A DNA stretch of 64,000 nt. Source: Limnothrix sp. FACHB-406 (GTDB lineage: Bacteria; Cyanobacteriota; Cyanobacteriia; CACIAM-69d). The position numbers were made by a program, and so were the translations under genes. Positions 1,835 to 14,420 of the stretch are shown piece after piece. The notes below the pieces were generated by a model. The model made no database searches. It was not told the DNA's origin and saw only the letters and a list, made by a program, of their open reading frames with translations. The stretch lies in assembly GCF_014698235.1 (NCBI RefSeq), contig NZ_JACJSP010000019.1:1-64000 (forward strand). Reading direction: 5' to 3'. Positions within the stretch are counted from its first letter, which is position 1. Each line of letters opens with the position of its first letter.

Positions 1835-3694
1835 TTACAAATTATCTTCTCCACTGATCATATAGCCTTTTAAATGCTCTGGTGTCTGCCAATTCACTCG
1901 TGGATCTGGAGTATGGTAGACCGGCCGAACGGTACCTCGCCAGGCAATTCCCATAATCTGCATCGTTTGGTAGATCATAGTTTGCCAGCCTTGACTACGA
2001 AGGTAGTGTAATCCTTCAGCAACTTCAGGGGAGGCTAAGTCATGGAAGACGATTGCAGCGTCGGGGGCAGCAAATTCTACGCAGGTTTGTGCATCTAGTA
2101 ATGGACCGGGGTGATCATGATTACCATCGATGAAAATCAAAGACCAAGGGTAAGATCTAGTTGATGCCAGATCTCGGACAGCCTGAGGACTATACCCAGG
2201 AATCAGGTGAACCCTTTCCAAAACACCAGCGGAATGTAGTGATTGAGATACAGATTGTTGAAATTCGGGGTTGAATAGGATGGGGTCAATGACATCCAGT
2301 AAGACACCTGCCAACGCCAAGTGACATGCTGACCAACCCATCCAGCATCCAACTTCTAGGGCAGGCAGTCCCCGGAACTGAAGTGCTATGTTATGCAGAA
2401 GTACAGCCTCATCGCGACTTAGGAAACCAGTGCTAGTCGCTCGGGAATCTACATACCAGTTATGTGGAGTGTCTCTCCGAAAATATTTCCAGGTCACCAA
2501 TTCTTTATTGCCAAGAATCATGTGAGGAAAACACTTGTCTGGCTGTACTACCTCTAGGTTTGGACTGGAGTAATCATAGCTTCTTAGTGAAACCAATGTC
2601 TTCCCCCACTGTAACTGAAAAGCAAGGCTTGCAGCCCTCTCTGCAGTTGTGGCTTGATTGCGCTGTTCCAGCAGACTTGACAGCTGTCGATAGACGAAGT
2701 AGTTAGTGGGATCTTGCAGCAACTGGTCACGTAAATCTTGCTCAAGTCCGCACCAATTTCTTACTTCAGAAGCAGACTTGCTATCTATCGCAAATGTGTT
2801 TTGAGCAACGAACTCCAGGTCTTGATGACTTTTTCTGAGTAGGGCGCTCCAATCTTCTGGTGATAAACTGCTGCGAAATTCACCAAGAGTCTTATCAGTT
2901 GCTAATGTTAGTGACATCAAGAGCCCGAGTTCGTCAAATGACGTGAATTCTCCCGAAAGGAGCTGTAGGGTGCCACTGGTGGGACTGTATCGGAAAAACT
3001 CTAGGACTTTGTCAAGGAATAAGCCGTTGTAGTTAAGATAGAGACGAAATAGGAAGTCCCAGTCTAAATGAGAAGCTGGTGCGCCCATTTCAATTCCTTT
3101 CCATCGGGTTAGTGGTAGACACCGCTTTCGGAATAAAAGACCGCAGAAGCCACCAAGTGAATATCCACTTACCCAATGATAAAGCAACTTTCTCGATCGT
3201 TCTTTGAGTCCAACAGTCTTAATTAAGTCTTGAATAGATTTCGGAAGAGTCACTAAAAAGTCATTTTCAACATCTTTTTGTGAAAGAGCATGAGAAACAC
3301 GTTCAAAAACAGGTTGAACCTTGCAGACAGTAAAATCCGTATCAGTTGATGCTAGCAACGGAGCAGTCATCTGTGCAACGAAATCTGGGGACAGATAATC
3401 ATCGGCACATTGGAGTTTCAGGATTTCGCCGTTAGCCAAAAGAATGGCACGACGGAAGCTTTCGTTAGCTGAAATGGTTGTTTCCGAACGGTATAATCTG
3501 ATCCTCGAGTCAAGATTGGCATATTCAGCAGCAATCTCCCAAGATCCATCAGTGCTCCCATTGTCACTGATAACAATTTCCAGGTTTTCATACGTTTGAG
3601 ATTGAATTGATTCAATTGTCTGCCTAAAAAATTCAGATTTATTGTACAGGGGTATACAGATCGAAACCAAGGGATACTGAGAGTTCCGCTTCAT
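1835..3694 (-). CDS. Fusion of GT2 glycosyltransferase and class I methyltransferase
   Basis: Two-domain protein of 619 residues. The N-terminal GT-A fold carries SICIPLYNK (res 11-19), SDNGSTDGS (43-51) and the metal-binding region CADD (96-99). A helical linker with a TPR-like look occupies roughly 320-390. The C-terminal 177 residues form a methyltransferase-like domain with glycine-rich motif I (LEVGCWMGWSACHLA, from about 446) and FIDGNHDH (521-528), as in the Methyltransf_24/CmcI type. The fusion suggests that sugar transfer and methylation (or methyl capping) of the glycan are coupled. The first 150 residues closely resemble the truncated gene at 4712-5170, so the two are tandem paralogues now separated by an IS element. 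Cytoplasmic face of the membrane is inferred. Confidence 0.8.
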   Translation of the reverse strand: MKRNSQYPLVSICIPLYNKSEFFRQTIESIQSQTYENLEIVISDNGSTDGSWEIAAEYANLDSRIRLYRSETTISANESFRRAILLANGEILKLQCADDYLSPDFVAQMTAPLLASTDTDFTVCKVQPVFERVSHALSQKDVENDFLVTLPKSIQDLIKTVGLKERSRKLLYHWVSGYSLGGFCGLLFRKRCLPLTRWKGIEMGAPASHLDWDFLFRLYLNYNGLFLDKVLEFFRYSPTSGTLQLLSGEFTSFDELGLLMSLTLATDKTLGEFRSSLSPEDWSALLRKSHQDLEFVAQNTFAIDSKSASEVRNWCGLEQDLRDQLLQDPTNYFVYRQLSSLLEQRNQATTAERAASLAFQLQWGKTLVSLRSYDYSSPNLEVVQPDKCFPHMILGNKELVTWKYFRRDTPHNWYVDSRATSTGFLSRDEAVLLHNIALQFRGLPALEVGCWMGWSACHLALAGVLLDVIDPILFNPEFQQSVSQSLHSAGVLERVHLIPGYSPQAVRDLASTRSYPWSLIFIDGNHDHPGPLLDAQTCVEFAAPDAAIVFHDLASPEVAEGLHYLRSQGWQTMIYQTMQIMGIAWRGTVRPVYHTPDPRVNWQTPEHLKGYMISGEDNL

Positions 3695-3955: not shown

Positions 3956-4390
3956 CTATGAAGCGATGGGCAATGAGGCGTTGTAGTGGTGCATGAATCG
4001 CCAAATTGCTGCTTCGTGATTCACCAAGGATTGGGAAAAAGATAGGGTATGCTGAACTAAACGACTGATCCGCTGACCCAAGGTGTTATTCAATCGCTCC
4101 ACGTAATTGGTTAATTCGGTCTCTTTGCCTACAGGTCGATGTTGCTTTCTGGGAATCACAGTTCGATAGGCTTCTCAAAAATCGGTATAGCGGACTGCAC
4201 ATTGGCGATAGCCCCCCCGGTAAGCCCTCCCACAGCTTTTGGGCTAACTGGGCTGAACGATTTCCCATGGATATTCCGACCACTTCGCGAGTCACGGCAT
4301 CCAAGGCCAGCCAGATTCAGACTTTCTGCTGCTTGGAACCGACAAATGACCAAAGCTCGTCCAGTTGTAGAATTAAACGGCCTTTTTTTT
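3956..4390 (-). pseudogene. InsB-like IS1 transposase catalytic part, frameshifted
   Basis: Read from the A8 run at 4383-4390, the frame gives KKGRLILQLDELWSFVGSKQ and then LDAVTREVVGISMGNRSAQL, typical of the DDE part of IS1 transposases. At 4212-4218 a run of seven G (minus strand) shifts the frame. Removing one G would restore LPGGYRQCAVRYTDF. In the restored frame a TGA at 4177-4175 stands where the family has Trp (DFW-EAYRTVIP). The C-terminal part, VIPRKQHRPVGKE through HHYNASLP, is intact again to 3956. Two independent lesions make this copy non-autonomous. Confidence 0.85.
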
Positions 4391-4672
4391 GGGGCGCACT
4401 TGCGCCTGACGAGGAATGCGACCGGCCTCGACCGCCACATAGGATTCAATCCAGGATTCAGAGACCTGTGCGACCCGCGCAATCGCGGACTGGGAGAGGC
4501 GTTCTAGGAGCAGACGATCAATGAGGGCGATCTGCTCAGGTGTGACTCGTTTCTGGGTGGGGTGCTCAATGAACTGACGGTCACAGGTTTTGCATTTGAA
4601 GCGTTGCTTGCCGTTGTGGATGCGACCATTTTTGACCGTGTGGCTGGATTGGCATTGAGGACAAGCAGGCAT
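4373..4672 (-). CDS. insA: InsA-like protein of IS1-family element
   Basis: A 99-residue protein with a four-cysteine zinc finger at the N-terminus (Cys4, Cys7, Cys27, Cys30 in ACPQC and KCKTC) and a helix-turn-helix region, QSAIARVAQVSESWIESYV. This is the DNA-binding regulator of IS1-type elements. In IS1 a -1 ribosomal frameshift on an A-rich slip site joins InsA to InsB. Here an A8 run at 4383-4390 sits just before the InsA stop and is a good slip-site candidate. This ORF itself is intact, although its InsB partner is broken. Confidence 0.75.
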   Translation of the reverse strand: MPACPQCQSSHTVKNGRIHNGKQRFKCKTCDRQFIEHPTQKRVTPEQIALIDRLLLERLSQSAIARVAQVSESWIESYVAVEAGRIPRQAQVRPKKKAV

Positions 4673-4711: not shown

Positions 4712-5170
4712 TTACTTCAAAGGCACTGCCAAATGTTGTTCGATAAGTGATGGATTGAGAATTTGGCTTGCCTCGTCGTCAAAGACAGGCTTTACAGTAC
4801 ATACAGAAAAGTCAGTCTCAGGTGACTTGAGAAGAGGCTGCACCATTGTCGAGATGAAGTCTGGTTCGAGATAATCATCTGCACACTGAAGCTTTAGAAT
4901 TTTACCGCGCGCTAAGAGAAGCGAATGACGAAAGTTTTCACCAGCTGATATAGTTTGACTGAGGTGGTAGTACTTGACTCGCACATCAGCGCTGGCGTAC
5001 TCCAGTGCCAGTTCTGAAGATCCATCCGAGCTTCCATTATCACTAATGACTATTTCAAAGTTTTCGTAAGTCTGAGATAGTATTGATTCAACTGTTTGTC
5101 TAAAGAATTCAACCTTATTGAACAAGGGAATACAAATCGAAATCAGTGGTAACTTTTCAGTGGTGCTCAT
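4712..5170 (-). CDS. GT2 glycosyltransferase, 3' end cut off by the IS element
   Basis: The 152-residue remnant has the GT2 N-terminus: ISICIPLFNK, SDNGSSDGS and CADDYLEPDF. It aligns along its length with the first 150 residues of the GT2-methyltransferase fusion at 1835-3694. The frame ends within the right inverted repeat of the IS1-type element, so the stop codon is IS-derived. The rest of the gene is not found on the other side of the IS (3695-3944 is open in no matching frame), so a deletion followed or accompanied insertion. A good GAGGAG ribosome site precedes the ATG. The product lacks the acceptor-binding half and is probably inactive. Confidence 0.75.
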   Translation of the reverse strand: MSTTEKLPLISICIPLFNKVEFFRQTVESILSQTYENFEIVISDNGSSDGSSELALEYASADVRVKYYHLSQTISAGENFRHSLLLARGKILKLQCADDYLEPDFISTMVQPLLKSPETDFSVCTVKPVFDDEASQILNPSLIEQHLAVPLK

Positions 5171-5195: not shown

Positions 5196-6257
5196 TCAGT
5201 TACGCATTAAGGCGAGATTCCATAAAATTGTTTTTCTAATAGATTCTTTAATATTGACTGTTAAGTCAAGCTTTAATTCTTTGGAAGCCAAAGAAGTGTC
5301 TGGGACTAACTTGGATCGCTTGAGTTTAGTTATCTCTGAAGAGCCAACTGTTATCTCGGGCGGATTCGCAAAGTTACTGCAGATGATGGATGCCAATGAC
5401 TTTAGAGTAATGCCGTGTGAACTACCTATATTGTAGCTAGCTCCGATTCGTCCCTTGACCAAAGCTACCAGGAGCCATAGAGCCATATCACTAGGATACA
5501 TGTAACTCCTGATCGTTTCGCCATCTCCTAAAATGCGAATCTCACTCCCCAATAAACTGTCTCGAATAAAATTATTAATTGCCCAAGGTCTATCTAGAAG
5601 TTGGTAGGGGCCAATAAAAGCAAAAGGACGGGCATTGACTACCGGTAGCCTATGTTGATTTCGGTAAACAGCACACAAAGTTTCTCCCATCTGCTTTGCT
5701 TCTGCATAGGCAGAGTTAATGGAAGTAAAATCTAAGACTCCACGAAAATTCTCAGGGGTAACCTCCATCTCTAGAGGTTGTAGGCCATAGACTAAACCAG
5801 AACTGATGTTGAGAAATTTTTTTAAGTTTGGCAAACGAGTTGCTGCCATCAGAGCCGACTCTGTTCCCTTGATAATGACATCTATTATCTTCAATGGATC
5901 TGAAGCATGAAGACGGCTATCTGGGTTTGCAGCAGCGTGGATAATCCAATTTACGTCACTGGAAATATCCAAAAAAGCGCGAACATCTTGCTCTACAAGC
6001 AAGATATCTTTTCTCAGTGCCAGATGTGGAGCTTTAGCGCTGAAATTATAGGCTCGCGATGATAGCAAGACTAATTTTGTGTTAAAGCCATAGGCATCAT
6101 TCAAGAATACGATCAATTCGGTTAGCCACGTTCCAACAAAACCGGTGCCTCCTGTGATCAGGATACACTCACCTCTTAATACAGATAAATCATCAACAAA
6201 GTTCGCTGTTACTCGATCACAGTCCTCTTTGATAATATTAATCAAGTCTTGCCTCAC
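5196..6257 (-). CDS. NAD-dependent epimerase/dehydratase (extended SDR) of the dideoxysugar cluster
   Basis: A 353-residue extended SDR with TGGTGFVG (35-42), HAAANPDS (108-114) and the catalytic YAEAK (Tyr184/Lys188). It is a clear paralogue of the SDR at 10084-11163: same length, same SSG(L/A)VYG region, same RP/RCFAFxGP and NFIRD blocks. The start is GTG, overlapping the TGA stop of the aldolase gene (GTGA), so translation is coupled to the aldolase. In context it may reduce or epimerise the branched or keto-sugar made by the ThDP enzyme and aldolase pair. The substrate is not visible in the sequence. Confidence 0.8.
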   Translation of the reverse strand: MRQDLINIIKEDCDRVTANFVDDLSVLRGECILITGGTGFVGTWLTELIVFLNDAYGFNTKLVLLSSRAYNFSAKAPHLALRKDILLVEQDVRAFLDISSDVNWIIHAAANPDSRLHASDPLKIIDVIIKGTESALMAATRLPNLKKFLNISSGLVYGLQPLEMEVTPENFRGVLDFTSINSAYAEAKQMGETLCAVYRNQHRLPVVNARPFAFIGPYQLLDRPWAINNFIRDSLLGSEIRILGDGETIRSYMYPSDMALWLLVALVKGRIGASYNIGSSHGITLKSLASIICSNFANPPEITVGSSEITKLKRSKLVPDTSLASKELKLDLTVNIKESIRKTILWNLALMRN

Positions 6258-7267
6258 CTGGTAGCCCCTCCAGTCATTAGATTCATAACTATTTCGATGA
6301 TTAAATCTTCTTGACCTGCTACCACCTTACGACGACCAAGCTCAAGAAAAACATTCTTTGGATTCACTCCATATTCCCTGGAAATACGCTCAACATGCTT
6401 AGCGAATCCTGAAAAAACTCCAGATAGTCCGCTGATAACGCTAATAGATTGGATGCTGGGAATGACGGACATTAATTCTTTTTCAGCAATGTCAGCTGCA
6501 TCTAGCATCTTGTATAAGTCAACACCTGTTGAAAATCCCATTTTTTCTAAGACAGCGACTAGGACTTCAAGCTGGGTGTTACCTGAACCAGCACCAAAGC
6601 CACGTGCTGTGCCGTCCAAAATAGTGGCTCCTGCCTGGACGGCCGCTATTGAATTAGCAACTGCCATTCCCAAATTATTGTGTCCGTGAAAACCCACTGG
6701 AATAGTTAAGTTTGTGACTAACTCTGCTATTCTTTCAGTGACATCGCAGGGAAGATAAGTGCCTGCTGAGTCCATAATTATAATAGCCTCAGCACCATAA
6801 GATTCCATTTTTGATGCTTCTTCTGCTAAAAGTTCTTTTGATGCCATGTGGCTCATCATTAGGACTCCATAAACTTCTTTTCCTTTATCCCGAGCATAAC
6901 CGATATGTCGCTGAGTAATATCAGCCTCGGTGCAGTGAGAGGCAACTCTGACCAAATCTACGCCAATATCTATAGCTGTTTTTAGATCCTTGTTGATTGT
7001 GGCAAAACCAGGAATCACGTGGATGCTCAATTTTGCATTGACCAGGTTTTGTCTAGCTACCTCTAGAATTTCGTGATCACTGATCAAACTTTCTCCTACT
7101 TGCAGAGAAGAAGCACCAAGTCCATTGCCATGTCCAACTTCAATGATAGGGACACCAGCAGCATCGGCTGCTGATGCATAGAGAGCTACTTGTCGTGCGC
7201 TCAGTTGATGACGGACGGCGTGGTTTCCATCTCTTAGAGTAGGGTCACTAATCAATACAGTTGACAT
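6254..7267 (-). CDS. 4-hydroxy-2-oxovalerate aldolase family protein (HMGL-like)
   Basis: A DRE-TIM aldolase of 337 residues that normally cleaves or forms 4-hydroxy-2-oxoacids from pyruvate and an aldehyde using a divalent metal. DPTLRDGNHAVRHQ (8-21) holds the Arg-Asp pair and the catalytic His20 of DmpG-type enzymes. Metal ligands are Asp13 and the GFHGHNN histidines (194, 196). The start overlaps the end of the acetaldehyde dehydrogenase gene by 20 bp with GAGGAG just upstream, as expected for subunits of the channelling DmpF-DmpG-type complex. No meta-cleavage catabolic genes are present. The neighbours are sugar-nucleotide genes, so a biosynthetic role (making the 4-hydroxy-2-oxoacid) is inferred. 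Confidence 0.88.
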   Translation of the reverse strand: MSTVLISDPTLRDGNHAVRHQLSARQVALYASAADAAGVPIIEVGHGNGLGASSLQVGESLISDHEILEVARQNLVNAKLSIHVIPGFATINKDLKTAIDIGVDLVRVASHCTEADITQRHIGYARDKGKEVYGVLMMSHMASKELLAEEASKMESYGAEAIIIMDSAGTYLPCDVTERIAELVTNLTIPVGFHGHNNLGMAVANSIAAVQAGATILDGTARGFGAGSGNTQLEVLVAVLEKMGFSTGVDLYKMLDAADIAEKELMSVIPSIQSISVISGLSGVFSGFAKHVERISREYGVNPKNVFLELGRRKVVAGQEDLIIEIVMNLMTGGATR

Positions 7268-8177
7268 AAGGCTCCTCTACTGCATCACAGTTGTCGTCAT
7301 AGCTGGAAATCTTAATATATTCCTTTGCGTATTTTTCGGCAGTGGCGATTGCGGCACAGTTAATAATATCCAGATTGCCGGCATACGTTGGCAGGTAGTC
7401 ACCCAGCCCTTGAACTTTGACCGTCATGATAATTCGATCATTTTCAAGCATGGGAGGTACAATAAGCTGGTATCCAGGAACATACATCCGAATACTGTTA
7501 ACCATTTCGTCAACAACAGTCTTAAGTTTATCCAGATCAGGATTTTTGACTCTGGCAAAAATAGTAGTTTGCATATCAATACATGGCTGTGCCGGATTAA
7601 GTATAAGAATTGCTTTAGCACGGTTGCATCCCGAAAAATTTTTAATACCCTCTTCCGTTGTTTCGATATATTCATCAATATTTGCACGAGTAGCGGGGCC
7701 AGCACTCCGAGAAGCAATACTAGAAACAACCTCTATATACTCAACGCTTTGGTGAATACGGCCTACAAGATAGGCTAGAGGAATAGAAGCTTGCCCACCA
7801 CAGCTAACCATATTAACGTTTTTATACAAATTACATTTTTCTATATTTACAGCCGGAATACACATTTCACCAATTTTGGCAGGTGTCATGTCAATTACAA
7901 TCTTACCCAGCCTTTCCAACAAAGACCAGTGATGGATGTGATCTTTCGCTGATGTGGCATCAAAAACCAAATCACAACAATCTGGTTCTTTAACAATAGC
8001 TTCGATGCTAAGGTCAGAAATTCTCACCCCCAGGCTATTAGCCTTTGCCATACCGGGAGATGCCATGTTACGTCCAATAAATAGGGAGCACTCAAGGAGG
8101 GGTGATCGCATGATCTTGACCAGAAGATCTGTACCGATGTTGCCACTACCGAGTATTGCTACCTTTAGTTTGCGCAT
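7248..8177 (-). CDS. Acetaldehyde dehydrogenase (acylating), DmpF/MhpF type
   Basis: A 309-residue NAD(P)-dependent enzyme that interconverts acetaldehyde plus CoA and acetyl-CoA. The N-terminal Rossmann motif is GSGNIGTD (10-17). The catalytic cysteine is Cys126 in MVSCGGQASIP, the family signature. It is immediately followed and overlapped by the aldolase gene, the same pairing as the DmpF-DmpG complex, in which acetaldehyde passes through a tunnel between subunits. In this polysaccharide setting it may run in the reductive direction to supply acetaldehyde. That direction is inference. Confidence 0.9.
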   Translation of the reverse strand: MRKLKVAILGSGNIGTDLLVKIMRSPLLECSLFIGRNMASPGMAKANSLGVRISDLSIEAIVKEPDCCDLVFDATSAKDHIHHWSLLERLGKIVIDMTPAKIGEMCIPAVNIEKCNLYKNVNMVSCGGQASIPLAYLVGRIHQSVEYIEVVSSIASRSAGPATRANIDEYIETTEEGIKNFSGCNRAKAILILNPAQPCIDMQTTIFARVKNPDLDKLKTVVDEMVNSIRMYVPGYQLIVPPMLENDRIIMTVKVQGLGDYLPTYAGNLDIINCAAIATAEKYAKEYIKISSYDDNCDAVEEPYVNCID

Positions 8178-8233: not shown

Positions 8234-10021
8234 TTACACGATTTTTTCGCGAACGCAATTTCCTAAATATTCTTCGCGAGGAAGGAAAGGAAACATATCG
8301 TCATACGGCATCGATACCATTCTGCCATCATCCATCTTTTTAGAAGCAACTCTTGGAATCAGTAATTGATTCGGCGGTGTCATTACCTCACAGACTAAAG
8401 GCCCCTGATGATGGATAATCTCAGATAGTTTTTCATCCAAGTCACAGAGTCCCGAGATTCTGATGAACTTAATTCCATAGGCAGATGCAATTTTTTCCAT
8501 ATCGGGACAGCTCACACCGCTATCTTTATCAACTCCAATGAATCGCCCTTCTTGAAAATTTCTCTGAGTGAGGCGAATCAGCAAGTAACCATTGTTATTG
8601 AGGACAATTAATTTAATGGGTAGATCATTCTGAAAAATCGTTTGTAGCTCTTGGATGTTGAACTGAACTGAACCATCACCAGTGATACAGAATACTTCTC
8701 TCCCCTGATTAGCAGTTGCCACTCCGATAGCCCCAGGCATATATCCCATTGTAGATAAACCACCTGTGATGATGTGTCGTTGTCCAAATTTGACTTGGAA
8801 AGCCTGTGCAAAAACATGAAAGCAAGAGCCAGTATCAATCAAAAAGGACGAGTCCTTTGACACTTCTTTGGATAATCGGCTCATGAAATGATAAGAGTTA
8901 ACACCGTTTTTCTCTTGTTGATATTCCGGTAAATCAACAGGGTATTTTTGTTTCCAGACTTGAGTTTGCTTCCTCCACGAAGAGTTATCAAGTTGATAAT
9001 CGCCTAGTTTTTCAAGCAGTAGGTCTATAAAAAGTTTTGCATCAGAGCAAACTGATATATCGGGTAAAATAGAAGGCTTTATAAGCTCTTGTTCATCAAC
9101 ATCAACACAAATTTTTACTGCGTAACGTGCAAAATCTTGAAAGTCATAGCCAACAAGTCCAATGCCTAAGCGACAGCCGATATTGAGCAACAGATCGGAA
9201 TTTTGAATGGTAAAGTTAGCTGCTCGGTCGCCATAAGTGCCGGGTCTGCCAACAAATAAAGGATGATGATGATCTATTAAATCCATTCCTAGTCTTGACG
9301 TTAAGACCGGAATACGGGTTTTATCAATTAGTTTGTGGAAGGACTCAATAGCGTTGGAAAGCCGAATACCAGCTCCGCCTAAGATGCAAGGTCTTCTGCT
9401 TTGGAGGATCGTCTCAGCAACTTGATTAACCGTTTCTGTTAGAGAATTCACTGATTGGTCTAGCACTGGGGGATTGAATCCCTCAAACTCATCAGGATCA
9501 AAATACATACCCTGAATATCAATGGGAGACTCAATCCACACTGGGCCCACACGATGGGAGGTCGCTAAATAAATGCACTTTTCGACTTCATATCTTATTC
9601 TTGATAAGTCATTGAGTATTACGGCATATTTGGTAACCTGCTCAAATATCGGCAGGGTATTGAATCCTTGGAGTGCAAATTGCCTAGGCCCTGTAACCAT
9701 AGTTTGGGATACCTTGGATTGACCCGAAACGATGATACAGGGAGAAGAGTCTACATAAGCCCCTACAACTCCCGTTAGTGTATTCAATGCCCCAGGGCCA
9801 GCCGTGACGTAAGCAACTCCTAGTTTTCCTGTAAACCTTCCATAGGCTTCTGCTGCCATTACTGCGGATTGTTCGTGGTGACAGCAAACGAACTTCTGAT
9901 TTTCATGCTGATACAAAGCGTCGGTCAGGTGCATAATCATGCCACCTGTGACTAAAAATACGCACTCCCCTCCTGCTTCGTACAGCTTATTTGTTATAAA
10001 GTCTGCAACTCGGGTTTTCAT
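8234..10021 (-). CDS. ThDP-dependent enzyme, acetolactate synthase-like (YerE-like candidate)
   Basis: A 595-residue thiamine-diphosphate enzyme with the three-domain POX/AHAS architecture. Glu50 in HHEQSAVMAAEAYGR is the cofactor-activating glutamate. The ThDP-Mg motif runs from GDG (448-450) to NNNGY (475-479). Family members decarboxylate a 2-oxoacid and transfer the acyl unit. In YerE of yersiniose synthesis the acceptor is the C4 ketone of a CDP-3,6-dideoxy-4-keto sugar. The position between rfbH and an acetaldehyde dehydrogenase/aldolase pair makes such a sugar-branching role likely here. A housekeeping acetolactate synthase is less likely, since no regulatory subunit gene or ilvC is near. 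Confidence 0.82.
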   Translation of the reverse strand: MKTRVADFITNKLYEAGGECVFLVTGGMIMHLTDALYQHENQKFVCCHHEQSAVMAAEAYGRFTGKLGVAYVTAGPGALNTLTGVVGAYVDSSPCIIVSGQSKVSQTMVTGPRQFALQGFNTLPIFEQVTKYAVILNDLSRIRYEVEKCIYLATSHRVGPVWIESPIDIQGMYFDPDEFEGFNPPVLDQSVNSLTETVNQVAETILQSRRPCILGGAGIRLSNAIESFHKLIDKTRIPVLTSRLGMDLIDHHHPLFVGRPGTYGDRAANFTIQNSDLLLNIGCRLGIGLVGYDFQDFARYAVKICVDVDEQELIKPSILPDISVCSDAKLFIDLLLEKLGDYQLDNSSWRKQTQVWKQKYPVDLPEYQQEKNGVNSYHFMSRLSKEVSKDSSFLIDTGSCFHVFAQAFQVKFGQRHIITGGLSTMGYMPGAIGVATANQGREVFCITGDGSVQFNIQELQTIFQNDLPIKLIVLNNNGYLLIRLTQRNFQEGRFIGVDKDSGVSCPDMEKIASAYGIKFIRISGLCDLDEKLSEIIHHQGPLVCEVMTPPNQLLIPRVASKKMDDGRMVSMPYDDMFPFLPREEYLGNCVREKIV

Positions 10022-10083: not shown

Positions 10084-11163
10084 TTAAGATTTTCGTTTTA
10101 TTTCACATAGATGATTTACCTGAGAATCCATGAGTAGCCACGCAATTGTTCGTCGAACCGCATTTACTAAATCAACTCTGGGCTGCAAGTTTAGTTCAGA
10201 CAATGCTCTTTTACTAGATGGTACATAGCGGCTAGTTGCAGCGTTGGAGGCAGGACACTGACAAATTTCGACCTGAATATTTTGATGAAATATCTCTCTT
10301 ACGACATGAGCTACATTGGCAATACTTAGAGACTCTTCAGAACCCACATTGTAAGGGTAGCAGGATTGACCTTTCAGCAAAATCGTCCACAACCAAATAA
10401 CCAAGTCAGCCACATAAAGATAGGAGCGGTAAGGTTTACCATCGCCATTAACTAAAATGGAAGCACCTTGAAGTGCATCACGAATAAAGTTTCCTATTGC
10501 AAAATGGCTTTCTAGAGGCAAATGCGGGCCAACGAAGGCAAAGCATCTTGCAATTTTAGTCTCTATGTTACATTGCTGAGCATAAATTGTACATAATAGC
10601 TCTGCCATTCGCTTTCCTTCGCCATAAGCAGACTTGGCATCCATAGTGTCAGGTGCTCCCCGATAGTCTTCAGGGATATGGGTCATATCAGGTGGCTGCT
10701 GCCCGTAAACTGCCCCAGAACTAGTTAGCAAAAACTTCTTGGCCCCGCAGTGCCGTGCAAACTCTAGCACATGCCTTGTTCCCTGGACTATTGTATCTAA
10801 CATCAGTAGAGGGGCTTCCTGATTTAGCTGGGCGCTTGCTTCTGTTGCCGCGTGAATTATATGGGAAAAAGCACCGTCAGGGAAGGAAAACGACCTGACA
10901 TCACCCACATGAAACTCAATAGCCGGATGAGATACTAGGTGAGGGGCTTTTTTTGCAAATGCTGCTGGATTTCTGGTTAAGACCAGAGCCTTAACTTCTA
11001 GCGCTTGCTTATCGTTAGCCCAGACCAAGCTTTCTAATAGCCAGCGGCCGAAAAAACCTGTACCACCCGTAATGAAAATACGTTGTGATCGCAGGTCTTC
11101 CCACAGATCATGAGTAGTTTCAAGAATATAATCTAGGTCTTCTGCTAAGGGATTGATTTTCAT
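10084..11163 (-). CDS. NAD-dependent epimerase/dehydratase (extended SDR), rfbH-linked
   Basis: Extended SDR of 359 residues with GGTGFFG (33-39), HAATEAS (104-110), LTSSGAVYG and the catalytic YGEGK (Tyr180/Lys184). It lies 27 bp downstream of rfbH. Its paralogue is the SDR at 5196-6257, so the cluster keeps two diverged copies flanking the ThDP/dehydrogenase/aldolase genes. One could act on the ring C4 or C3 keto group and the other on the side-chain ketone that a ThDP enzyme leaves (the YerF-type step). This division of labour is inference. Confidence 0.8.
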   Translation of the reverse strand: MKINPLAEDLDYILETTHDLWEDLRSQRIFITGGTGFFGRWLLESLVWANDKQALEVKALVLTRNPAAFAKKAPHLVSHPAIEFHVGDVRSFSFPDGAFSHIIHAATEASAQLNQEAPLLMLDTIVQGTRHVLEFARHCGAKKFLLTSSGAVYGQQPPDMTHIPEDYRGAPDTMDAKSAYGEGKRMAELLCTIYAQQCNIETKIARCFAFVGPHLPLESHFAIGNFIRDALQGASILVNGDGKPYRSYLYVADLVIWLWTILLKGQSCYPYNVGSEESLSIANVAHVVREIFHQNIQVEICQCPASNAATSRYVPSSKRALSELNLQPRVDLVNAVRRTIAWLLMDSQVNHLCEIKRKS

Positions 11164-11190: not shown

Positions 11191-12549
11191 TTATAAACGT
11201 GCTGTAAAGTATTTAATTTTTTCGACAGCATATTCTAATGCTTCCTTTGTCAACCCTGGGAATGTACCCAGCCATAGTGTCTTGTCCATCACTTTGTCTG
11301 TATTTTGAAGCTCCCCAACAAATCGATAATTTAATCCTTGGTATAGAGGTTGTCGGAGTAAGTTTCCGCCAAAGAGTAACCGAGTACCGATCAAATTCTT
11401 CTCCAGATACTGCACGAATTCATTGCGAGTGAATGGTACGTTATCTCTTAGAGACAGCGGGAAGCCAAACCAGCTTGGATCAGCATCTTGGGATGATTCT
11501 GGCAGTACCAAGACATCCTCTAGCTCCTTCAACTGTTGATACAAGAAGCTAAAGTTCTGCTGGCGTTTTGCGATAAAGTCTGGCAACTTATCTAGCTGAG
11601 CAACACCAACTGCAGCCTGCATATCTGTCAGCTTTAGATTATAGCCAACGTGTGAGTAAGTGTATTTATGGTCATAACCAAACGGTAAGTCACCCAACTG
11701 CCAGTCAAATCGCTTGCGGCAGGTATTGTCTACTCCAGGAGGACACCAACAGTCTCGCCCCCAATCCCGAAATGACTCGACGATTTTCTTGAGCCGAGAG
11801 TCGCTTGTCAAGACAGCTCCACCCTCTCCCATTGTTATGTGATGAGCAGGATAAAAGCTAACAGTGGATAGATGCCCAAATGTGCCGGTTTTCCGACCTT
11901 TGTAGAGACTGCCAACAGCATCGCAGTTATCTTCAATGACCCAAAGTTGATGCTTCTCTGCAAAAGCTAAGACTGCATCGACATCAAATGGGTTACCCAA
12001 GGTGTGGGCAACCATAATTGCTTTCGTGCGAGTAGACAAGGCCAGTTCTAGCTGCGTGACATCTATATTGTAGCTAGGTAGGCTAATGTCAACAAAGACG
12101 GGAACGAGCTGGTTCTGAAAAATTGGGTTTACTGTTGTCGGAAATCCCGCAGCTACCGTAATGACTTCATCCCCAGGTTGCAAGCGGCGATCGCCCAATT
12201 GCTTTGAAGTCAGGGCACTCAGGGCTAACAAATTAGCAGATGACCCTGAGTTAACCAGTAAGCAGTGTTTTACACCAATCCACTCTGCGAATCGTTGCTC
12301 AAATAGCGCTGCGTAGCGCCCAGTGGTCAGCCAAAAATCAAGGGAAGAGTCAACTAAATTCAGCAGCTCTAACTCATCGAAAACTTTTCCCGACACAGGA
12401 ACTGGTGTTTGCCCCGGAAGGAAAGGTTGCTTTGCAAATTTAAACTCATAAAACTCGGCAACTGCTGCTAGAACGCGAGATCGAAGCTCCTGTTCGCGGC
12501 CAAGAATGCTAGCGGAACTTTGTGTAGAGGCAATTTCGCTAGAAGTCAT
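11191..12549 (-). CDS. rfbH: CDP-4-keto-6-deoxy-D-glucose 3-dehydrase (E1), RfbH
   Basis: PMP-dependent [2Fe-2S] dehydrase that removes the C3 hydroxyl of CDP-4-keto-6-deoxyglucose, in 452 residues. The aspartate aminotransferase fold is present, but the usual PLP lysine is replaced by histidine in [14 protein letters not shown] (His236/237), the hallmark of E1 dehydrases. Iron-sulfur cysteines appear as C267-W-C269 and C277 in [13 protein letters not shown]. The enzyme needs a reductase (E3/AscD type). None is encoded in this window, so a host ferredoxin system or a distant gene must serve. It is followed by the SDR and ThDP genes in the same direction. Confidence 0.95.
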
Positions 12550-12570: not shown

Positions 12571-13647
12571 TTAAGTTTGCCGATGGGTAACACCAACAAA
12601 TTCTAAAATCTGTTCCTGCGTAACTTGTTGCATCTCTCGCCCGTCATAATACGCACGATACCATGAAACTGTGGACTCTACTGCTTGATTCAGAGACCAT
12701 CGGGGTTTCCAATACAATCGCGATCGCGCTTTGCTAGAGTCCAGTTGCAATAATCCTGCTTCATGGTAATCCGGATTAATCTTGGCGATCTCAACTGTTC
12801 CTCCCCAAACCTCAGCAGCCAACTTTGCCACCTCGCCAACCGTCACCGTATCTACCGCATCTGGGCCAAAGTTCCAGGCTTCACAGAACTCCAGAGCACG
12901 GTCACCCAGTAATGCCTCTGCTAAGCGCAAATAACCCGACAGCGGTTCTAAAACATGCTGCCATGGACGAACTGCCTGCGGATAGCGCAACTTCAGTGGT
13001 TCAGCCGCCTGAAACGCCCGCACACAATCAGGAATCAATCGACCTGTCGCCCAGTCGCCACCACCAATGACATTTCCAGCCCGAGCCGTCGCCACTGCAA
13101 TACCCTGTGGCCCCAAAAAGCTCGATCGATAAGCCGAAACTACTAACTCTGCACAAGCTTTGCTGTTGCTGTAAGGATCAAATCCCCCCAGGCGATCATT
13201 CTCCCGATAGGGATACACCCACTCCTGATTTTCGTAGCACTTATCCGTTGTAACCACGATAATCGCCCGCACCGAATCAACTAGCCGCGCCGCCTCTAAC
13301 ACATGGGCCGTCCCCATCACGTTCGTGGCATAGGTTTTAACTGGAAGTTCGTAGCTACGTTTCACGAGAGGCTGGGCTGCCAGGTGAAAGATTACGGTTG
13401 GTTGGGTCTGGCAGATGGCTGCTTCAATCGCAACCCCATCTCGAACATCAACCCTCAAATCTGATTCGAGGAGTCTCTCAAAACTTACCACTTGGTAAAG
13501 GCTCGGGTTTGTTGGTGGGTCAAGTGCTAAGCCAGAAACCCTTGCACCTAACTGATGAAGCCACAGGCATAGCCAAGCTCCCTTGAAGCCTGTGTGTCCC
13601 GTCACCAAGACCGATTGTTCTTGCCAAATAGCAGGGCTAGGATTCAT
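12571..13647 (-). CDS. rfbG: CDP-glucose 4,6-dehydratase, RfbG
   Basis: Extended SDR converting CDP-glucose to CDP-4-keto-6-deoxyglucose. Key parts are [14 protein letters not shown] (res 13-26), [13 protein letters not shown], the TTDKCY active-site strand and the catalytic YSNSK (Tyr159/Lys163). I place the start at the ATG at 13647, whose ATGA overlaps the stop codon of rfbF (4-bp overlap, translational coupling). This gives 358 residues, the usual family length. An upstream frame extension inside rfbF is unlikely to be used. The higher GC and CGATCG content here differs from the genes further downstream. Confidence 0.95.
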
Positions 13648-14420
13648 GGCCAAACTTTCCAGGGCGCTTCGCCCGAGTCCCAAAGCTGCTCCAGATAGAC
13701 CTTATCTCGCAGAGTATCCATTGGCAACCAAAAACCATGGTGATCAAACGCTTGCAGTTGACCTGCCGCAGCCAGAGAGGCAAGCGGTTCCCCTTCCCAG
13801 CTGGTGAGATCGCCCTGAATATAGTTGATTACTTGAGGGGATAAAATAAAAAATCCACCATTGATGCGCCCTCCATCACCCTTAGGTTTTTCTAGAAAAC
13901 CCCTTACTTGATCGCCGTCACGTTCTAGTGCTCCATAGCGCCCAGGGGGCTGCACTGCCGTAACCGTAGCAAGCTTGCCATGTTGCCGATGAAAGGCAAC
14001 AGAGGCAGTGACATCAATGTCTGCAACCCCATCTCCGTAGGTGAAGCAAAATTCAGTGTCATCCTGCAAGTAATCGGCAACTCGTTTTAGTCGCCCACCA
14101 GTCAACGTGTTTTCTCCAGTGTCTACTAGCGTCACTCGCCATGGTTCGGCATAACGCTCGTGGACTTCCATCATATTTTTAGCTATATCAAAAGTCACAT
14201 CAGAGGTGTGTAGGAAGTAATTAGCAAAATATTCTTTAATTACGTATCCTTTATAGCCGCAGCAAATGATGAAGTCATTGATGCCATGGGTTGAGTAGAT
14301 TTTCATAATATGCCAAAGAATTGGCTTGCCACCAATTTCAACCATTGGCTTCGGTTTTAGGTAGGTTTCTTCGCTAATACGGGTACCTAGTCCACCGGCC
14401 AGAATTACACACTTCATCAA
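13644..14420 (-). CDS. rfbF: Glucose-1-phosphate cytidylyltransferase, RfbF
   Basis: First gene of the island. It makes CDP-glucose from CTP and glucose-1-phosphate. The nucleotidyltransferase signature [20 protein letters not shown] starts at residue 5, with GDGVADID and [10 protein letters not shown] further on. The length of 258 residues is typical. Tandem ATG codons at 14420 begin the frame. It is divergent from ldpA, across a 270-bp gap that should hold the promoter of the whole minus-strand cluster. I could not pick out a convincing promoter there. Confidence 0.95.

Follow-up and report, generated by a model that had tools for sequence, protein, structure and literature searches.

The closest described relatives of the gene pair studied here are the catabolic aldolase-dehydrogenase pairs DmpFG, BphIJ and MhpFE, which act at the end of meta-cleavage routes for pollutants, and those of its ThDP-dependent neighbour are the carboligases YerE, ErwE and JanthE. 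In the parts of a review drawn on here, YerE (yersiniose A) prefers pyruvate and adds a C2 unit from it to a CDP-keto sugar, a route in which DmpFG is not needed, whereas ErwE from Pectobacterium atrosepticum, a YerE-like ThDP enzyme, does not use pyruvate and prefers 4-hydroxy-2-oxo acids, the acid made by DmpG among its reported donors, for building erwiniose, a branched C10 sugar, on the same acceptor, CDP-3,6-dideoxy-4-ketoglucose (PMC12247030). Those parts do not state the source of ErwE's acid, and ErwE is compared here through its published description, its sequence and gene cluster being outside the comparison. JanthE from Janthinobacterium sp. HH01 (8rph) accepts 4-hydroxy-2-oxovalerate, and the portions of the 2025 paper used here call its physiological substrates unidentified (PMC12188165). 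We report on a DmpF-DmpG-like pair that very probably supplies the donor in a pathway to a CDP-linked, C4-branched sugar.

The pair lies in a 64-kb stretch of DNA, referred to as the window, where positions 14420-5196 are, judged from family matches, a CDP-3,6-dideoxyhexose operon. From 14420 down to 5196 the genes, all on the minus strand, are RfbF, RfbG, RfbH, SDR2, ThDP enzyme, DmpF, DmpG and SDR1, separated by short gaps or overlapping slightly:

13644..14420, minus strand: RfbF, glucose-1-phosphate cytidylyltransferase (TIGR02623, 467.5 bits, cut-off 300)
12571..13683, minus strand: RfbG, CDP-glucose 4,6-dehydratase (TIGR02622, 478 bits, cut-off 278)
11191..12549, minus strand: RfbH (E1), CDP-4-keto-6-deoxyglucose 3-dehydrase (NF011936, 740 bits, cut-off 423)
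10084..11163, minus strand: SDR2, extended SDR of the epimerase/dehydratase family, candidate reductase or epimerase (PF01370; YGEGK motif)
8234..10021, minus strand: YerE/ErwE/JanthE-like ThDP carboligase, 595 aa (TPP_enzyme N/M/C; GDG motif at 448, Glu50)
7248..8177, minus strand: DmpF-like acylating acetaldehyde dehydrogenase, 309 aa, with Cys126 (TIGR03215, 390 bits, cut-off 282; PF09290)
6254..7267, minus strand: DmpG-like pyruvate aldolase of the sugar-type clade, 337 aa (TIGR03217, 392 bits, cut-off 286; DmpG_comm, PF07836)
6413..6415, minus strand: Phe285 codon (DmpG Tyr291, BphI Tyr290; residue alignment)
7019..7021, minus strand: His83 codon (DmpG Leu88, BphI Leu87; residue alignment)
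7272..7277, minus strand: GAGGAG within the DmpF gene, resembling a Shine-Dalgarno site for the aldolase
5196..6257, minus strand: SDR1, an extended SDR that immediately follows DmpG and is a candidate for reducing the branch ketone (PF01370)

An earlier sequence-only reading had placed a DmpF-DmpG-like pair in a sugar-nucleotide operon, and this holds: both ORFs are as it described, the family cut-offs are passed and the Rfb genes are neighbours. The 20-bp overlap that it gave is also found (the two ORFs share 7248-7267), as is the GAGGAG ahead of the aldolase, 4 nt before the ATG. RfbH has His236 at what we take to be the position of the PLP-lysine of aminotransferases, and His occupies it in 67/67 loci that matched at E<=1e-40. 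No acetyltransferase family was detected among the operon proteins scanned. Beyond the operon, an InsA-like zinc-ribbon short ORF (IS1-type remnant, 4373-4672) adjoins a GT2 gene that is truncated (4712-5170) and similar to the 5' portion of the gene for a 619-aa GT2-methyltransferase at 1835-3694 (3380-3678 against 4856-5154); this GT2 copy is probably a duplicated glycosyltransferase broken by insertion.

The window pair shares with DmpFG, BphIJ and MhpFE the fold family, the adjacent genes and the key residues. Cys126 of the dehydrogenase, claimed as intact, aligns with the known residue and is present in 84/84 sugar-type rows (the rows are defined below). Aligned to DmpG (PDB 1nvm), the aldolase keeps R12, D13, H16, H194 and H196, contains the communication domain DmpG_comm (PF07836) and is distinctive at N48, H83 and F285. 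Arg12, Asp13, His194 and His196 were thus correctly called intact; the choice of His20 as the catalytic His fails, since DmpG His21 aligns with His16 of the window protein and its His20 corresponds to DmpG His25. DmpG His21 (BphI His20) serves as the catalytic base. The overlap had moreover been taken as a sign of a channelling complex, and we reject it as such a mark: in 85 sugar-type rows the DmpF-DmpG gap takes values between -47 and +995, and the two genes overlap in 42 of these 85 compared with 5/25 other DmpG loci. An AlphaFold model of DmpG (5 sequences) was set aside (mean pLDDT 74; the active-site loops 14-20, 47-60 and 268-287 below 50).

Starting from DmpG, matches at E<=1e-60 occurred in 5/386 genomes of the window's phylum. 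All five adjoin DmpF and a ThDP carboligase; three (the window, L010 and L011) also have RfbF, RfbG and RfbH, in L008 RfbH is accompanied by a weaker match to RfbG, and the stretch of L009 that was examined shows just a weak RfbH match (157 bits). Within 19 kb L009 (G198) carries three ORFs for YerE-like ThDP enzymes, of which only one is adjacent to DmpG. Scanning a genome collection with an alignment of these five rows yielded 424 relatives, of which the best 80, chosen on DmpG alone, were kept; the scan patterns were derived from sugar-type rows, and the sample thus covers that clade. These best 80 of 424 loci come from 17 phyla, archaea included (since many are contigs of MAGs, individual phylum assignments may be in error), and with tblastn DmpF was found in 80, a ThDP match in 76, SDR1 in 72 and RfbF in 58.

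Together with the window, the 4 other phylum loci and 3 loci of a control class (see below) they make up 88 sugar-type rows, or 87 loci, as L132 repeats L091 (same genome); L163, outside the 88, apparently repeats L119. A ThDP ORF lies within 5 kb of DmpG in 82/88 sugar-type rows (80 on the same strand), and a relative of SDR1 within 200 bp on the same strand in 73/88. In the 47 rows whose flanks reach 9 kb or more in both directions the numbers are RfbF 41, RfbG 41, RfbH 42 and ThDP enzyme 46. Six rows have no ThDP ORF within 5 kb: in L076, L096, L108 and L123 the contig ends near the pair, while L054 and L116 have longer flanks and the enzyme is absent from the stretch examined. L116 (Paenibacillus cellulositrophicus) has sugar-type DmpFG with neither a ThDP enzyme nor Rfb genes within ~10 kb. 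The Paenibacillus loci L090 and L103 have the ThDP enzyme, and RfbF/G/H are absent within ~10 kb; their ThDP enzymes are 63-64% identical to that of the window, and their pathway possibly uses a different acceptor. HpcH/HpaI-type aldolase ORFs adjoin DmpFG at L054:3958-4683 (by Pfam) and L118:11020-11796 (by eye).

As a control, DmpG was searched for in 369 genomes of another class and found at E<=1e-70 in 26 genomes at 29 places, three scoring 516-526 bits and the rest at most 360. The three high-scoring loci have ThDP and Rfb genes and lack any MhpA-D match; at the 26 other control DmpG loci neither a ThDP nor an Rfb match was found (0/26). The ThDP association, 82/88 sugar-type rows versus 0/26 others, gives a Fisher P of 3e-20, with the loci being related and not independent. 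A meta-cleavage marker is present at 20/26 of the other loci, MhpC or MhpD in 19 (in L155 counted ~9 kb off) and a BphC-like dioxygenase in L153, and was not found in the remaining six (L135, L145, L149, L156, L157 and L159); the neighbours in L145, L153 and L156 were assessed by Pfam scan of two proteins each. One genome, G386 (Rugamonas fusca), has one sugar-type DmpG and two other copies.

The association was also approached from the ThDP side. One family, sampled with 245 genomes, has sugar-type DmpG in 4 of them, all with the whole cassette, and a JanthE-like enzyme (E<=1e-150) in 3, all among these 4 and each on the same contig as DmpG, ~1.9 kb away (hypergeometric 1.7e-6). In the fourth genome (L161) the cassette contains another ThDP enzyme, with 42% identity to that of the window; N48, H83 and F285 were found in all three loci of this family that were examined. 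In the window's phylum a YerE-like enzyme (E<=1e-100) occurs in 47/386 genomes, and only 4 of those 47 have DmpG; DmpFG accompanies a subset of YerE-like enzymes, as expected if others use pyruvate or another source.

These data support the sequence-only reading in setting the pair in a sugar operon and outside aromatic catabolism. Its statement that meta-cleavage genes are missing is borne out, in that E. coli MhpA/B/C/D have no match in the window; in the whole genome neither MhpD (a search run without positive control) nor the extradiol-dioxygenase family BphC_D1 gave a match. It had held that relatives consistently beside aromatic-degradation genes would speak against it, and 5/5 phylum DmpGs are in sugar loci; the neighbourhood statistics that it proposed as a check show a conserved sugar context, with the other DmpGs, most of them catabolic to judge by their neighbours, on a separate branch. 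There is more here than an unusual location: a whole clade appears to have been recruited to one particular task.

In a DmpG tree of 45/88 sugar-type rows and all 29 others, a single branch (SH-aLRT 99) separates the sugar-type from the other DmpGs, with L011 and some others on long branches. Here the window clade differs from DmpFG, BphIJ and MhpFE, as it also does in its sugar neighbours and probably in working in the synthetic direction. The clade has Tyr291->Phe, Leu88->His and Asp53->Asn in DmpG numbering. Specifically, position 291 is Phe in 88/88 sugar-type rows and Tyr in 29/29 others, position 53 is Asn in 88/88 and Asp in 27/29 others, and position 88 is His in 81/88 and Leu in 28/29 others, the sugar-type exceptions being Leu (L075 and L077), Phe (3) and Tyr (2). 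BphI numbering was taken as DmpG minus one, an offset adopted because DmpG then has Leu88, Leu90 and Tyr291, and otherwise Thr87 and Val290.

In passages from three reviews, BphI is strictly 4S, its Y290F or Y290S variant takes both enantiomers, and L87N/Y290F and L87W/Y290F are 4R-selective (PMC3962088, PMC3962226, PMC4012138). By alignment, the natural clade has altered the same two positions, Leu87 and Tyr290, that were engineered in BphI to invert 4S to 4R. As both stereo-controlling residues are changed, the window DmpG probably sets the aldol carbon as 4R. The name of erwiniose contains D-gulo, as does that of caryophyllose. The latter, a related sugar, is described in the passage used here as a D-erythro-D-gulo-decose whose branch is an (R)-1-hydroxyethyl group (PMC9026286); worked out from this name, the geometry of its C-7, the presumptive aldol carbon, is like that of (4R)-4-hydroxy-2-oxopentanoate.

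The YerE-like ThDP enzyme next door, which the sequence-only reading did not name, likely explains the job of the pair. Among solved structures JanthE (8rph) matches it best, at 430 bits compared with 236 bits for the runner-up. The ThDP enzyme of locus L111 (L111:7226-9058) is 98.6% identical to JanthE, and its gene adjoins sugar-type DmpFG and RfbFGH; JanthE differs in belonging to the CDG motif lineage and is 37% identical to the window's GDG enzyme. The motif is GDG in 35, CDG in 45 and GEG in 1 of 81 enzymes (the CDG/GDG counts may include the L132/L091 repeat), and with two ThDP lineages beside one DmpG clade the products may differ. Erwiniose is reported as a ten-carbon sugar, and its carbons, 6 from the sugar plus 4, fit a C4 unit from 4-hydroxy-2-oxopentanoate. 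Since this acid is the aldol product of DmpG (pyruvate plus acetaldehyde), the pair probably runs in reverse and supplies the donor.

From the observed gene content, order, residues, clade and association we infer direction, substrates, stereochemistry and product as follows. RfbF, RfbG and RfbH would provide CDP-4-keto-3,6-dideoxyglucose, DmpF would convert acetyl-CoA to acetaldehyde, and DmpG would join this to pyruvate, the reverse of its catabolic direction, to give 4-hydroxy-2-oxopentanoate. The ThDP enzyme would decarboxylate this acid and attach what is left, a C4 unit, at C-4 of the keto-sugar, SDR1 or SDR2 would reduce the new branch ketone, and the predicted product is a ten-carbon erwiniose-type sugar for a surface glycan; the tie to erwiniose itself is a similarity of kind.

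It is unlikely that DmpG instead joins pyruvate to another aldehyde, e.g. propanal, or a hydroxy-aldehyde as for the caryophyllose skeleton, giving a branch longer than C4. A smaller residue in place of Leu89 lets BphI accept longer aldehydes, and the caryophyllose chain is longer (PMC9026286), as the excerpts used here have it; however, by its family score the DmpF of the pair is an acetaldehyde dehydrogenase, so that acetaldehyde is the simplest partner, with propanal still compatible. Quite improbable, in our view, is a yersiniose-type route, in which the ThDP enzyme uses pyruvate for a C2 branch and DmpFG makes acetyl-CoA for O-acetylation or removes leaked acetaldehyde. DmpF can in principle run toward acetyl-CoA. 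This route would leave the aldolase without a role, although DmpG, DmpF and the ThDP enzyme co-occur, and the scanned operon proteins lack any acetyltransferase family. The preference of YerE itself for pyruvate would favour it, whereas the review, as far as it was drawn on, has ErwE not using pyruvate (PMC12247030). That the pair is an ordinary meta-cleavage relic in the operon by chance is hardly credible: its scores exceed the cut-offs of the catabolic models, but the separate clade (SH-aLRT 99), the distinct DmpG residues, the context conserved across 17 phyla (best 80 of 424 relatives) and the genome's lack of an MhpD or BphC_D1 match stand against it, and the context statistics already contradict it.

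Supply of a C4 donor by DmpFG remains our preferred reading, and it extends to a broader proposal that we see as equally apt to hold or to fail: that the DmpG clade (17 phyla, best 80 of 424) is dedicated to branched sugars, is naturally (4R)-selective and feeds both ErwE-like and JanthE-like carboligases, and that the physiological donor of JanthE would therefore be (4R)-4-hydroxy-2-oxopentanoate. The donor preference of ErwE and the chemistry of DmpFG were already known; the link of DmpFG to branched sugars and the stereo-residue pattern were not found in the literature searched, the main erwiniose papers lying outside that scope, and the priority of the link is uncertain.

Since database models label this clade as pollutant-degrading, cyanobacteria, Bacteroidota and archaea that carry it may be mistaken for aromatic degraders. 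The proposal offers a testable answer to the natural role of JanthE, a structurally solved biocatalyst, and provides candidate natural 4R pyruvate aldolases for synthesis. Finally, it predicts that ten-carbon branched sugars would be present in many organisms.
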